Origin: Flavobacteriaceae bacterium
GTDB lineage: Bacteria > Bacteroidota > Bacteroidia > Flavobacteriales > Flavobacteriaceae
Assembly: GCA_002700465.1 (NCBI GenBank)
Contig: PADT01000011.1
Span: 1-37,754, forward strand
Direction of reading: 5' to 3'
Length of the DNA: 37,754 nt
In this document: positions 14,946 to 36,600 of the stretch, piece after piece
Position numbering within the stretch: the first letter of the stretch is position 1
How the letters are laid out: every line of letters starts with the position of its first letter
Notes under the pieces: model-generated
The model's input: only the letters and a program-made list of their open reading frames with translations
Told to the model about the DNA's origin: nothing
Databases searched by the model: none
Program-made: the position numbers and the translations under genes

Positions 14946-15143
14946 ATGGCACATCCTAAAAGAAAAATTTCCAAAACTAGAAGAGACAAAAGAAGAACAC
15001 ACTACAAAGTTTCAGATTCTCAGATAGCTACATGTAAAACTACGGGAGAAGCTCATTTATACCATAGAGCTCATTGGCATGAAGGTAAATTATACTACAG
15101 AGGTAAAGTTTTGATAGACAATACAGTAGAAGCAGAAGCTTAA
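14946..15143 (+). CDS. rpmF: 50S ribosomal protein L32
   Basis: This 65-residue, highly basic protein begins [20 protein letters not shown], the standard L32 start. It has one cysteine ([19 protein letters not shown]) instead of the four-cysteine zinc ribbon of some bacteria, so it is the zinc-independent form usual in flavobacteria. It sits between DUF177 and fabH, an arrangement that links ribosome production and fatty-acid synthesis. Confidence 0.97.
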
Positions 15144-15153
15144 TATATTTTTG

Positions 15154-15182
15154 AAAAAAATGGTGTTTTTGGCCATTTTTTT
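15154..15182 (+). terminator. Possible intrinsic terminator after rpmF
   Basis: AAAAAAATGG at 15154-15163 pairs perfectly with CCATTTTTTT at 15173-15182 around a 9-base loop. The stem begins 10 bases after the rpmF stop codon, and its T-rich arm could serve as the slippery tract. Only three G-C pairs are involved, so read-through into fabH is likely. Four further T-tract arms follow, any of which could compete for the same left arm. Confidence 0.45.
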
Positions 15183-15222
15183 ACATTTTTTTGCCATTTT
15201 TTGCCATTTTTTTGCCATTTTT
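15166..15222 (+). repeat. Phased T-tract repeat (unit about TTTTTTGCCA)
   Basis: Six T-tracts of 5-7 bases begin at 15166, 15176, 15186, 15197, 15207 and 15218, spaced 10, 10, 11, 10 and 11 bases. This is close to the 10.5-base helical repeat. The units between tracts are mostly GCCA (GGCCA, ACA, GCCA, GCCA, GCCA). DNA with T/A-tracts in phase is expected to be intrinsically curved. The array fills most of the 102-base spacer between rpmF and fabH. Confidence 0.85.
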
Positions 15223-15245
15223 GATCAAAATTCTAAATAACGAGC

Positions 15246-16238
15246 TTGAAAAAAATTAATGCTTCAATAACTGCAGTAGGGTCTTTTTTGCCGGAAAAAA
15301 TTTTGAATAATGCAGATTTAGAAAAAATCGTTGATACTAATGACGAGTGGATAACTACTCGAACCGGAATAAAAGAAAGAAGAATTTTAGATAAAGGCAT
15401 AGGAACTTCACACATGGCAATTCAAGCCGCTAACACCATAATTAAAAAGAAAAAATTAGATCCTACAGAAATTGACTTAGTCGTTGTAGCTACTATAACA
15501 CCAGATATGCACGCAACCGCAACTGCAGCGTATGTTGCTTCTGAAATAGGCGCATCTAACGCATTTGGATTTGATATTAGCGCAGCTTGTTCGGGATTCT
15601 TGTATGGTTTGTCTACTGCATCTGCATTTATTGAATCAGGCAGATATAAAAAAATTATTTTAATTGGAGCTGATAAAATGTCTTCAATAGTTGACTATTC
15701 TGATAGAAATACGTGTATTATTTTTGGGGATGGTGCTGGGGCCGTTTTATTAGAGCCTAACATTGAGGGTTACGGTGTTAAAGATGAATATTTACGTTCA
15801 AATGGGTCAAATAGAGATTTGCTTAGAATTGAAGCTGGAGGATCTCAAACACCCACAACAAAGAATACGGTAAAAGAAAAAAAACATTTTATATATCAAG
15901 ACGGTAAAAACGTCTTTAAACATGCAGTTTCAAATATGTCAGACGCTTCTGATCAAATCATGAAACGCAATAATTTAACACATTTAGATGTAAATTATTT
16001 AGTTGCACACCAAGCTAACAAAAGAATTATTGACGCTACATCTAAAAGAATGGGTATTAAGGACGAAAAGGTCTTAATGAATATTCATCGATATGGTAAT
16101 ACTACCGCAGCAACAATTCCTTTGCTTTTATTCGATTTTGAATCTAAGTTTAAAAAAGGAGATAACATTATTTTTGCCTCTTTTGGAGCAGGCTTCACTT
16201 GGGGAGCTATGTATTTAAAATGGGCCTATAACCAATAA
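15246..16238 (+). CDS. fabH: 3-oxoacyl-ACP synthase III
   Basis: This 330-residue enzyme condenses acetyl-CoA with malonyl-ACP to start fatty-acid synthesis. The triad is Cys115 (AACSGFLYGL), His255 (AHQANKR) and Asn285 (YGNTTAAT). The N-terminus ITAVGSFLPE and DTNDEWITTRTGIKERRI are typical. The start is TTG at 15246: the frame is closed by a stop at 15234-15236 and no ATG lies between it and residue 55. accB follows after 10 bases. The spacer ahead contains the phased T-tracts. Confidence 0.96.
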   Translation: MKKINASITAVGSFLPEKILNNADLEKIVDTNDEWITTRTGIKERRILDKGIGTSHMAIQAANTIIKKKKLDPTEIDLVVVATITPDMHATATAAYVASEIGASNAFGFDISAACSGFLYGLSTASAFIESGRYKKIILIGADKMSSIVDYSDRNTCIIFGDGAGAVLLEPNIEGYGVKDEYLRSNGSNRDLLRIEAGGSQTPTTKNTVKEKKHFIYQDGKNVFKHAVSNMSDASDQIMKRNNLTHLDVNYLVAHQANKRIIDATSKRMGIKDEKVLMNIHRYGNTTAATIPLLLFDFESKFKKGDNIIFASFGAGFTWGAMYLKWAYNQ

Positions 16239-16248
16239 TTATTTTATT

Positions 16249-16725
16249 ATGAACATTAAGGAAATTCAACAGTTAATCAAATTTGTAGCAAAATCAGGAG
16301 TAAGTGAAGTAAAAATTGAATCAAAAGATTTAAAATTAAGTGTTAAAACTGGAGCCTCAGGAAAACTTGTTTCACATACAGAACCAGTATTACTAAATAC
16401 GCAGCCATTAGTTCAAAATGTTTTATCAGAAACTTACTCTGAACCAGAAAAAGTTCAGGCTTCCGACACTTCCGAAGACAATCATTTAATCACTATCAAG
16501 TCACCTATTATCGGAACTTTTTATAGAAAGCCCTCGCCAGACAAGCCTAATTTTATTGAAATAGGAGATTCAATAAAGGAAGGAAGCGTATTGTGTGTAG
16601 TTGAGGCTATGAAACTTTTCAACGAAATAGAATCGGAATATTCAGGAAAAATTGTTAAAATTCTTGTTGATGACGCATCACCAGTTGAATTCGACCAACC
16701 GTTATTTGTAGTCGACCCTTCTTAA
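16249..16725 (+). CDS. accB: Biotin carboxyl carrier protein of acetyl-CoA carboxylase
   Basis: This 158-residue protein carries biotin between the two half-reactions of acetyl-CoA carboxylase. The biotinylated lysine is Lys122 in VEAMKLFNE. The biotinyl domain (from about residue 80, [20 protein letters not shown]) includes the protruding thumb loop typical of true BCCP. A flexible linker separates it from the N-terminal helical segment [13 protein letters not shown]. accC follows after 10 bases; the carboxyltransferase genes are not in this window. Confidence 0.96.
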
Positions 16726-16735
16726 TCATATACTT

Positions 16736-18079
16736 ATGTTTAAAAAAATATTAATTGCTAACCGAGGCGAAATTGCGTTACGAATTATAAGAACTTGTAA
16801 GGAAATGGGTATTAAAACCGTGGCGGTTTACTCTGTAGCTGATGAGGAAAGCTTACATGTTAAATTTGCTGATGAAGCGGTTTGCATTGGCCCAGCTAAT
16901 AGTGCAGACTCGTATTTAAAAATACCAAATATTATTGCGGCAGCTGAAATTACTAATGCGGATGCTATTCATCCAGGATACGGTTTTCTTTCTGAAAATG
17001 CTAGATTTTCCAAAATATGTGATGAACATAAAATTAAATTTATTGGAGCTTCTGCAGAAATGATTGAAAGAATGGGCGACAAAGCTTCTGCAATTGCAAC
17101 AATGAAAGAAGCTGGTGTTCCAACAATTCCAGGATCTGGAGGAATTATCGAGACTTTTGATAAAGCTAAAAAAATAGCTAAAAAAATAGGGTACCCAGTA
17201 ATGATAAAAGCAACTGCAGGTGGTGGAGGAAAAGGAATGAGAGCAGTTTGGAATGAAGAAAGCTTTTTAGATTTATGGGAAAGTGCAAAACAAGAAGCAT
17301 TTGCATCATTTGGAAACGATGGAATGTACATGGAAAAGTTAGTTGTAGACCCTAGACATATTGAAATACAAATTGTAGCAGATAAATTTGGAAAAGCTTG
17401 TCATTTGTCTGAAAGAGATTGCTCTATACAAAGAAGACATCAGAAATTGACAGAAGAAACACCTTCTCCATTTATGACTGACAGTTTAAGAGAAAAAATG
17501 GGTAAAGCAGCTGTTAAAGCCTCCGAATATATCAAATACGAAGGAGCAGGAACAATTGAATTTTTAGTAGACAAAAACAGAAATTTTTATTTCATGGAAA
17601 TGAATACTAGAATTCAAGTTGAGCATCCAATTACCGAGCAAGTTATTGACTATGATTTGATTAAAGAACAAATTAAAGTTGCTTCTGGAGTAAGGGTTTC
17701 AGGAGAACATTATTTTCCTAATCTTCATTCAATCGAATGTAGAATAAACGCAGAAGATCCGTTTAAAGGATTTAGACCCTCGCCAGGCAAAATAACTAAC
17801 CTCCATTTGCCGGGGGGTCACGGAGTTAGATTGGACACGCATGTTTACAGTGGCTATATTATTCCTCCTAATTATGATTCTATGATTGCTAAATTAATTG
17901 TAACTGCTCAAAATAGAACAGACGCAATTGATAAAATGCGAAGAGCTTTAGATGAATTTATTATTGAAGGAATAAAAACAACTATTCCATTTCATAGACA
18001 ATTAATGGATCATCCAGACTATATTTCCGGGAATTACACCACGAAGTTCATGGAAGATTTTGAAATTGAAGAAAAATAG
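16736..18079 (+). CDS. accC: Biotin carboxylase of acetyl-CoA carboxylase
   Basis: This 447-residue ATP-grasp enzyme carboxylates BCCP-biotin with bicarbonate and ATP. It opens with [19 protein letters not shown], has the glycine-rich ATP loop [13 protein letters not shown], the [12 protein letters not shown] segment, and the active-site region [14 protein letters not shown]. The length is standard for bacterial AccC. Its stop codon is one base from the stop of asd on the opposite strand, leaving no room for a terminator between them. Confidence 0.97.
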
Positions 18080-33655: not shown

Positions 33656-36600
33656 CTAATTAATTTTTGTTAAATATAATTTAGAATCAATGTTATCAAA
33701 TTTAAGCTCCACTCCATCCTCAAAATCATCTAAAACTATTAAATTTTCTGCCAATGTCTCAGTTAATATATAATTTTGGTTTTCAAAAATAGCTTTTTCA
33801 AGGATAATATCCTTTTTAATTTTTAAATTAATTTTATCTGTTACCAGCAATCCACTCTCTTTTCTTAAAGTTTGAATTCGATTTACCAGCTCTCTACAGA
33901 TTCCTTCGTTAATTAATGTGTCATTTAATTGTATATCAAGAGCTACTGTAACACCATTTTCGGAAGCTACTAGCCATCCTTCAATATCTTCAGAAATTAT
34001 TTCTAAATCACATGGTTCTAAAATTATTTCTTCTGAATCTATAGTGATAGAAATAGACTGATTTGCTTCTATTTTTTGAATTTTAGAATCGTCTAGTGTT
34101 TTAATTTCAGCCATTACAGCAGACAGTTTTTTGCCAAGCTTAGGTCCAAGAGATTTAAAATTAGGCCTAACTTTTTTAATTAATATCCCAGAGGAGTTGC
34201 TTATAAGCTCCACTTCTTTAACATTTACTTCAGATTTAATAAGTTCTGAAATTTCTAAAATTTCTTTTTTTTCGTTCTCACTTGAAAAAGGAATCATGAT
34301 TTTTGAAAGAGGTTGACGAACTTTTAATTTTTCTTTTTTTCTAAGAGATAAAACTAAAGAACATATTGTCTGAGCATTTCTTATTTTTTGTTGTAAATCA
34401 GGACAAATTTCTTCAGAGTTTGAAACAGGAAATTCATCATGATGAACGGAGTCCAAAGGATTTTCAGAGGTGTTGTTAATTAAATCTTTATATAATCTAT
34501 CCATAAAAAACGGAGCGATTGGAGATGATAATTTAGAAACTACTGTTAAACACTTGAAAAGCGTTTGATAAGCACTGATTTTATCATGACTATATGATCC
34601 TTTCCAAAACCTTCTTCTGGAAAGCCTTACATACCAATTACTTAAATATAACTGTACGAAGTTTGAAATTGCTCTTGCAGCTTTTGTTGGCTCGTAATTA
34701 TCGTAATGATCGTCAACTTCAGCTATCAAAGAATTTAACTCAGATAATATCCATTTATCAAGTTCAGGCCTGTCGTTTATATTAATTTCATTTTCCTTGT
34801 AACTGAAATTATCAATATTTGCGTATAAAGCAAAAAAGGAATAAACATTATAAAGAGTTCCAAAGAACTTGCGTTTACTCTCTTCAATTCCGTCTAAATC
34901 AAATTTTAAATTATCCCAAGGATTAGCATTACTAATCATATACCACCTTGTTGCATCTGGTCCAAACTCAGAAATAGTTTTAAATGGATCAACAGCATTT
35001 CCGAGCCTTTTTGACATTTTTTGACCATTTTTGTCAAGGACAAGACCATTAGAAATCACATTTTTATATGCTATAGATTTAAAAACTGTTGTAGCAATAG
35101 CGTGAAGAGTGTAAAACCATCCTCTTGTTTGATCAACTCCTTCAGCAATATAATCAGCAGGAAAAGCTTCATTATTATCAATTTTGCTTTTGTTTTCAAA
35201 AGGATAATGCCATTGTGCGTAAGGCATAGATCCAGAATCAAACCACACGTCAATTAAATCAGGCTCGCGATACATTTTTTCGCCTTTAAGAGAACAAAGA
35301 ATGATTTGGTCAACTACATTTTTATGTAAATCAATCTTATCATAATTATCATCACTCATGTCATGAATATCGAAGTTTTTAAATGGATCATTTTTCATAA
35401 AACCCTTGGAAATAGATTTTTTAATTTCCGTTTTTAGATCTTTCATTGAACCAATAACTAAAATTTCTTTAGAGTCACTTGTTCTCCATATAGGTAATGG
35501 AATCCCCCAATATCTAGACCTTGATAAATTCCAATCATTTGCGTTTGCAAGCCAGTTTCCAAATCTGCCTTCACCTGTAGATTTAGGCTTCCAGTTTATG
35601 GATTTATTAAGCTCAATCAAATCCTCTTTTTTATCTGTTACTTTTATAAACCAAGAGTCTAAAGGGTAGTATAATATTGGCTTGTCAGTTCTCCAACAGT
35701 TAGGATAACTGTGAACATATTTTTCAACTTTGAAAGCTTTATTTTCCTCTTTTAATTTAATAGCGATTTCAACATCTACAGATTTTTGTGGAACTTCATT
35801 CTCCTTATAATATTCATTTTTAACAAACTTACCCCCCAAAAAACCAAGTTCTTTTCTAAATTTTCCTTGTAAATCAACCAAAGGCACAGGCTGTTGATTT
35901 TCATCAAGAATTAATAATGCAGGGATTTCAGGAGAAGCCATTTTAGCAACTTTTGCATCATCTGCACCAAAGGTAGGAGCAGTATGGACTATTCCAGTAC
36001 CATCTTCTGTTGTTACAAAGTCACCCTGAATAATTCTAAAAGCATTTTCAGGATTTTTGTATGGTAAAGGAGCATCCTCCCATAGCTGAGAATATTTTAT
36101 ACCGACTAACTCGCTTCCATTTATGGACTCGTTAATTAAAAAAGGAATTTTCTTATCGATTTTTGAATCGTATTTAAGTTCGCTTTTGGAACTAACCTTT
36201 ATATAATTTCCAATGAAAACTTTAGCAACAAGGTCACTAGCTAAAACAACATTTGTAAATTCATGAGTATATTGATTGAAAGTAGACACTACACTATATT
36301 TAATTTTTCCACCTACAGTTAGAGCGGTGTTTGAAGGAAGTGTCCAAGGAGTAGTTGTCCATGCTAAAAAATATAAAACTTCATAGCTTGATAGTGATGC
36401 AGGAAGAGAATTATTTATAGCTTTAAATTGAGCTGTAACTGTTGTGTCACTTACTTCTTGATAAGTACCAGGTTGATTAAGCTCATGTGAACTCAAACCT
36501 GTCCCTGCTTTTGGCGAGTATGGTTGTATTGTATAACCTTTATAAATTAAATTTTTATCAAATAGTTCTTTTAAAAGCCACCAAACTGATTCAATGTATT

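Follow-up and report, generated by a model that had tools for sequence, protein, structure and literature searches.

The spacer between rpmF and fabH contains a phased array of six T-tracts that is real and far from chance. The array lies at 15166..15222 on the forward strand of the window (the whole stretch of DNA that was analysed, 37,754 nucleotides) and consists of tracts of 5-7 T separated by short, mostly GCCA-like linkers, with about one helical turn for each tract. It is conserved across the genus of the source organism, its predicted curvature is strong, and its last unit has a favoured form and a favoured distance to the fabH start codon. The reading preferred here, tentatively and with a probability of roughly 0.4, takes the array as intrinsically curved DNA and as the upstream portion of a promoter for fabH-accB-accC. 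We infer the identity of this promoter, the use of the curvature by RNA polymerase, and the position of the transcription start.

The phased array and its conservation

The six T-tracts were located at 15166-15170 (five T), 15176-15182 (seven), 15186-15192 (seven), 15197-15202 (six), 15207-15213 (seven), and 15218-15222 (five), which gives start spacings of 10, 10, 11, 10, and 11, and an A7 tract lies at 15154-15160; tracts, spacings, and coordinates are all as claimed in a preliminary description of this DNA. The window tests as having A/T tracts of at least four bases repeated at the helical period (six tracts), and the same array was found by Tandem Repeats Finder at 15166-15222 with a period of 11 or 21. 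A phased chain of six tracts occurred in none of 500 dinucleotide shuffles of the window spacer. The upstream neighbour is rpmF (14946..15143, forward strand; ribosomal protein L32, 65 aa), which scored above the cut-off of NCBIfam TIGR01031. Downstream on the same strand are fabH (15246..16238; beta-ketoacyl-ACP synthase III, 330 aa, TTG start; NCBIfam TIGR00747), accB beginning 10 nt past fabH (16249..16725; biotin carboxyl carrier protein; NCBIfam TIGR00531), and accC (16736..18079; biotin carboxylase; NCBIfam TIGR00514). Searches against Rfam gave no match at gathering score in the window. A further short, phased T-run at 35008-35037 was rejected as an array of this kind; by eye its other strand encodes the lysine-rich KMSKR motif of an aminoacyl-tRNA synthetase, so that it is coding.

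The genus sample comprised 22 genomes, including that of the window (G000), with assemblies of 1.1-1.9 Mb that were 51-93 percent complete. We take the genus to be a probably marine clade of the Flavobacteriaceae; its nearest named relatives by FabH are Flavobacteriaceae. The rpmF-fabH spacer was readable in 20 of the 22 genomes (rpmF was matched only in part in G004 and not at all in G019), and FabH identity to the window, where the protein is intact, goes down to 68 percent across these 20. T-tracts are present in every readable spacer. Tract phase, to which the preliminary description had pointed as the property to follow in relatives, is kept in 19 of the 20, with at least four tracts in a phased chain; the exception is G002, where the spacing of the tracts ranges from 11 to 24.5 bp. 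In each of the 19 phased spacers the observed chain was matched by no more than 8 of 500 shuffles, and G002, with 290 of 500, was like its shuffles. The chain at fabH is 5-8 tracts long in 16 of the 20 genomes; these conservation counts are non-independent because the genomes are related.

The mean tract period is 10.21 bp, with a standard error of 0.03 (19 genomes). Tract lengths differ between species, mostly within 5-7 T, and are compensated by linker length (r -0.44); an equally small unit variance was obtained in none of 5000 permutations. Successive spacings are anticorrelated (-0.52, 88 pairs), the pattern expected for tracts tied to a lattice. Among the sister genomes G000, G003, and G013, 10 of 20 linker columns and 3 of 36 tract columns are variable. 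In the window fabH begins with TTG, as it does in 16 of the 17 genus genomes measured (G016 has ATG); in the other Flavobacteriaceae read, the start codon is mostly ATG.

Curvature was predicted with two wedge models, which were checked on artificial phased and unphased repeats. Under both, the largest predicted bend among all 84-bp segments of the window fell in the rpmF-fabH spacer; the most curved segments start at 15164 and 15140, with 169 and 172 degrees, and the next sites reach 113 and 102 degrees. In all 20 genus spacers, those of the window and of G002 included, the predicted bend exceeded that of 60 of 60 shuffles, in agreement with the curvature above shuffled spacers that had been anticipated for this DNA. 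When 400 kb of G015 was scanned, the spacer of that genome ranked top at 146 degrees and a coding-looking site reached 143 degrees, so strong curvature is not unique to the spacer. FabH loci were also sampled from named genomes (80 loci, seven of them in the genus of the window). The 130 bp before fabH were predicted to be curved in 9 of the 14 non-genus loci with rpmF upstream (equalled by no more than 2 of 40 shuffles) and in 3 of the 59 loci in which rpmF was undetected, a contrast that is confounded by relatedness. On these models, the predicted curvature supports the earlier reading of the tracts as curved DNA, as do the conserved phase within the genus and the scarcity of such arrays.

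The last unit and the candidate promoter

Under the promoter reading, T-tracts placed once per helical turn would bend the DNA in one plane and would offer their narrow minor grooves to RNA polymerase, through contacts of the alpha subunit or through wrapping. The last unit, CATTTTTG at 15216-15223 on the forward strand, would occupy the place of the sigma-A -7 box (consensus TAnnTTTG) as a degenerate form of it, and the curved array would compensate for this imperfect box and for a poor -33 element. Sigma-A promoters of Bacteroidota have a TTG near -33, at a spacing of 17-23. A candidate for this element is the TTG at 15191..15193 (forward strand), 22 nt before the candidate -7 box; a TTG separated from the box by 21-22 nt is present in 13 of the 20 genomes and missing in 7. 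In Flavobacterium psychrophilum, the -7 box TAnnTTTG stands at -12 to -5 and the median leader is 24 nt, according to PMC9723704. If the last unit is the box, this placing predicts a transcription start at 15228 on the forward strand, with a leader of about 18 nt ahead of the TTG codon as against the median of 24 nt.

With the chain end found without use of the motif, the chain-end tract was A-T5-G in 17 of 20 genomes versus 3 of 109 inner tracts, and it had five T in 18 of 20 versus 18 of 109. The A-T5-G chain end of G018 is a tract farther upstream, and in G001 the phased chain extends one tract beyond the unit placed by motif. A ANNTTTTG unit could be placed before fabH in all 20 genomes, a count that is partly circular since the motif A(T/C)TTTTG served for the placing. 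Most often this last unit reads CATTTTTG and lies some 22 nt ahead of the fabH start. The distance from the G of the last ANNTTTTG unit to the start codon is 20-23 nt in 16 of 19 genomes, and 12, 13, and 26 nt in G002, G018, and G016.

The consensus box is enriched in front of genes of the genus, with 48 occurrences of TAnnTTTG versus 17.8 ± 3.9 in shuffles. At the last unit it was found in none of the 20 genomes; (C/G)ANNTTTG was present in all 20, where the count of ANNTTTG is again partly circular, and the first base is never T. CAnnTTTG showed no enrichment before genes (9 versus 6.1 ± 2.5), and CATTTTTG did not occur in 178 upstream regions. Elsewhere in the spacer, TAnnTTTG or TAnnTTGY was found in only 4 of 20 genomes, the window included. 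Support for the promoter reading thus comes from geometry and conservation and not from a match to the consensus. No periodicity of T, A, or A+T was detected upstream of 59 other TAnnTTTG sites in the genus, which counts against the promoter reading; a genome-wide promoter periodicity like that of Campylobacter was rejected on these sites.

Loci at which fabH is reduced or replaced bear on which gene is served. In G006 and G007, fabH is cut down at the locus to its first and last codons (by eye, assemblies as given), and the best FabH matches elsewhere in these genomes are 29 and 40 percent identical; seven phased tracts are kept there, ahead of accB and accC (biotin carrier and biotin carboxylase domains). 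In G179, which belongs to another genus, a histidine-phosphatase gene replaces fabH, and a 12-tract array (L280:6509-6626) ends 27 nt before accB-accC. These arrays suggest that the array serves the operon containing accBC rather than FabH itself. Among seven other genera in which the rpmF locus was read by eye, an array was present only in G179 and in none of the other six, where rpmF is followed by an accB-like frame (G095, G138, G226, G108) or by fabH (G142, G231). Presence in one of seven genera argues against a general rule that an array precedes the accBC operon.

The outgroups provide evidence against the promoter reading. Of the 10 outgroups read, 5 (L020, L021, L022, L023, L028) have a TAATTTGC motif at 84-92 nt from the fabH start, on its upstream side; the motif resembles TAnnTTGY, the SM5 box of F. 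psychrophilum, and T-rich DNA is located downstream of it, before fabH (by eye). Ancestral T-tracts would on this arrangement have been in the leader. Outgroup spacers are 149-180 nt long (nine measured). In the genus, TAATTTGC is absent from the 20 spacers, the array fills most of the spacer, and no strong terminator was seen either.

A narrower proposal is that the array acts as a DNA-shape rheostat for membrane-lipid synthesis, such that cooling of the sea would raise fabH-accBC transcription without a regulator protein. A-tract curvature is stronger in the cold. The proposal is considered highly improbable; if true, the recurring arrays in related small-genome genera would be the sign of a lineage relying on curved DNA and not on regulators.

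Other loci and alternative explanations

Arrays of at least four tracts were counted in samples of three genomes. In 438 kb (400 kb of G015 plus the window), three were found, and both intergenic ones are rpmF-fabH spacers; in 380 kb of G010 there were again three, the sole intergenic one being the rpmF-fabH spacer. No other intergenic array was present in the 818 kb sampled, a second locus lying outside the samples. A search for two GCCA units with at most two mismatches returned 17 places in 11 of the 22 genomes, 16 of them in the rpmF-fabH spacer, and the reversed control returned 1. Over whole genomes, a four-tract pattern fell mainly at the rpmF-fabH locus and at a glycosylase locus, plus scattered single places. 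At a spacing of 10-11 bp the pattern was matched in 21 of 22 genomes, and a control at 14-16 bp matched scattered places in 16 of 22, several of which are repeats of 15-bp units resembling coding repeats; these counts were not used as statistics because overlapping matches inflate them and because the reversed T-tract pattern is nearly identical to the original.

The second array is located 3' of a gene for an HhH-GPD glycosylase (L182:5500-5721, L179:5112-5322, L178:5715-5814, and syntenic loci). Among the 19 genomes examined, of 21 with this gene, at least four phased tracts were found in 13, three tracts in 2, and no array in three (G016, G006, and G007), and one genome is cut by a contig end; the gene had no match in G000. 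The tracts number up to 21 (G013, near-perfect repeats). In several genomes the array lies between convergent genes for an aldo/keto reductase and the glycosylase (families tested in G014 only). In six others its neighbours are the glycosylase gene and a MATE-like gene read the same way, and the A-tracts fall on the strand that is coding for both, which makes an RNA role unlikely at this locus. In one of the six, G020, most of the array falls within the end of the glycosylase frame.

More widely, a five-tract pattern was matched in at least 48 of 249 genomes, genus members included, and among the matches listed many look like lysine-rich coding strands or plain poly-T. Ten places from other genera were read, one of which has its array inside a reading frame and one of which lacks a chain of four. 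Intergenic arrays of 5 to 12 tracts were found at seven places in six of these other-genus genomes (1.4-2.2 Mb), one of them before accB and the rest at other genes. G179 has a second 12-tract array 3' of the gene for riboflavin synthase (L280:3358-3476). Arrays at other intergenic sites weaken a purely promoter-based account, and the array loci together point to DNA shape, not RNA, as their common feature.

Such sites would be explained by a structural element untied to a promoter, that is, a stretch of bent DNA to which a nucleoid protein binds or which pins a supercoil. The conserved array between convergent genes at the glycosylase locus, the six MATE-neighbour genomes with A-tracts on both coding strands, and the six arrays of other genera that lie away from accB are all consistent with it. 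For pure structure, however, the favoured last unit and the favoured distance to the start codon at fabH would be superfluous, and the chain of 5-8 tracts kept there in 16 of 20 genomes also counts against it; this explanation is regarded as somewhat unlikely. In a functionless tandem repeat, produced by slippage and duplication of units, the phase would simply follow from the copying of units 10-11 bp long. Within each genome the linkers resemble one another, and they differ from those of other genomes (by eye; GCTC in G008, ATCA in G009); there is also a higher-order period of 21 bp, and the glycosylase locus has near-perfect repeats in one genome and no array in three, all of which speak for such an origin. 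It is nevertheless judged unlikely: one place has been kept in 20 of 20 genomes despite the divergence of FabH, tract and linker lengths compensate each other and the last unit is favoured (in genomes that are related and whose units look homogenised within each genome), and intergenic arrays were otherwise lacking from the 818 kb sampled, which did not include the glycosylase locus.

Readings at the RNA level are less probable still. A weak terminator-like hairpin (A7-TGG ... CCA-T7) at 15153..15182 on the forward strand overlaps the first two T-tracts; formed by AAAAAAATGG and CCATTTTTTT, it has a predicted energy of -9.4 kcal/mol, which none of 15 shuffles equalled. Taken whole, the spacer did not fold better than its shuffles (z -0.74), of which 42 of 200 folded equally well, and in its minimum-energy form the left arm is paired with the last of the right arms instead of the first. 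The preliminary description had offered a tandem terminator, in which one left arm has several alternative partners, and this proposal went mostly unsupported. A hairpin of -4 kcal/mol or lower was found in 10 of 20 genus spacers, of which that of the window is the strongest, and G011 and G018 yielded no hairpin. In the outgroups, each of the ten loci scanned has a strong hairpin ahead of fabH, at -11 to -20 kcal/mol (the stretch scanned was 100 nt for the genus and 220 nt for the outgroups, with shuffles for the genus only). No stable stem with a U-tract like that of close relatives was found in the genus spacers, and the tandem terminator was rejected. The site had also been described as the point at which output of L32 is separated from output of FabH. 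This holds for the outgroups, where a terminator does so, and not evidently for the genus, where no strong one was seen and read-through from rpmF into fabH is possible. Strong hairpins were found at 10 of 116 gene ends in a sample of G015 (L128-L147) versus 31 of 81 in a sample of the outgroup G034 (L220-L229), so the missing strong terminator at rpmF-fabH is not special.

Termination of rpmF transcription by means of several U-rich arms, whether intrinsic or assisted by a U-tract, is rated very unlikely. The hairpin of the window and those of the outgroups favour it, as do the sister genomes, which keep the pairing with changed letters (TGG/CCA, TAG/CTA, TCA/TGA; by eye), and the excess of bent DNA at putative terminators for which Bolshoy and coworkers are cited in PMC4060949. 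It is opposed by the finding of a hairpin in just half of the genus spacers, none below -9.4 kcal/mol, by the location of the array mostly downstream of the hairpin, and by the 10.2-bp phasing, which is unnecessary for RNA termination. A weak terminator may exist in the subgroup of sister genomes with compensating pairing. Least probable is an element of the RNA leader, in which a U-rich, C-spaced stretch would serve, for example, as a Rho loading site or as an unstructured landing stretch for ribosomes. A pyrimidine-C step in 94 of 111 linkers would suit it, as would the T-rich outgroup stretches between the presumed promoter motif and fabH (by eye), but at the glycosylase locus of some genomes the U strand is antisense to both neighbours. 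To our knowledge, helical phasing has no use in RNA.

Comparison with known systems

Phased A-tract promoters are already a known kind, and it is the locus and the lineage that are new. A literature search combining tracts or curvature with Bacteroidetes, Flavobacteriaceae, fabH, and rpmF gave no title on the array among the matches listed. Until now, promoters of this kind have been described at a small number of genes and as a statistical trend; the present case is a discrete and extreme array, kept at one housekeeping locus throughout a genus while its linkers drift, and it offers a clean natural test of selection on DNA shape versus selection on sequence. The array also marks where a fatty-acid operon may start, in a group without a strong terminator seen where its relatives have one.

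A low-temperature bent promoter of Clostridium perfringens is cited by title in PMC2697988. It is said to have three phased A-tracts upstream; phased tracts in that position are shared with the present case. In Mannheimia, tandem A-tract units of about 10 bp lie upstream of the core promoter, as described in PMC2697988; these too are helix-phased and variable in number, and are there termed curved and enhancer-like. The rows considered from that source give two to four units, in one species, whereas the units here are mostly 5-8 and occur in all 20 readable spacers; moreover, the array here reaches the presumed -7 box and precedes a lipid-synthesis operon, and it belongs to a candidate promoter only. 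Phased A-tracts of Synechocystis are aligned with the -10 element and the start (PMC9825172), and in RpoD promoters of Campylobacter jejuni a periodic signal replaces the -35 box, according to a title cited in the same source. Both share with the present array phased A/T tracts that are aligned with a core promoter. Many promoters are involved in those organisms, whereas a single locus is involved here, and 59 other candidates in the genus have no T period. The T-tract rheostat of Helicobacter pylori sabA is similar in that an intergenic T-tract near a promoter shapes the DNA and the contact with polymerase, according to PMC4081817; it differs in having one tract of variable length that turns an upstream element, where several tracts in constant phase are found here. 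Excess predicted curvature in intergenic DNA and terminator regions, for which Bolshoy and coworkers are again cited in PMC4060949, is likewise a point of resemblance, although what is a statistical trend there is a discrete, extreme array at the rpmF-fabH locus.
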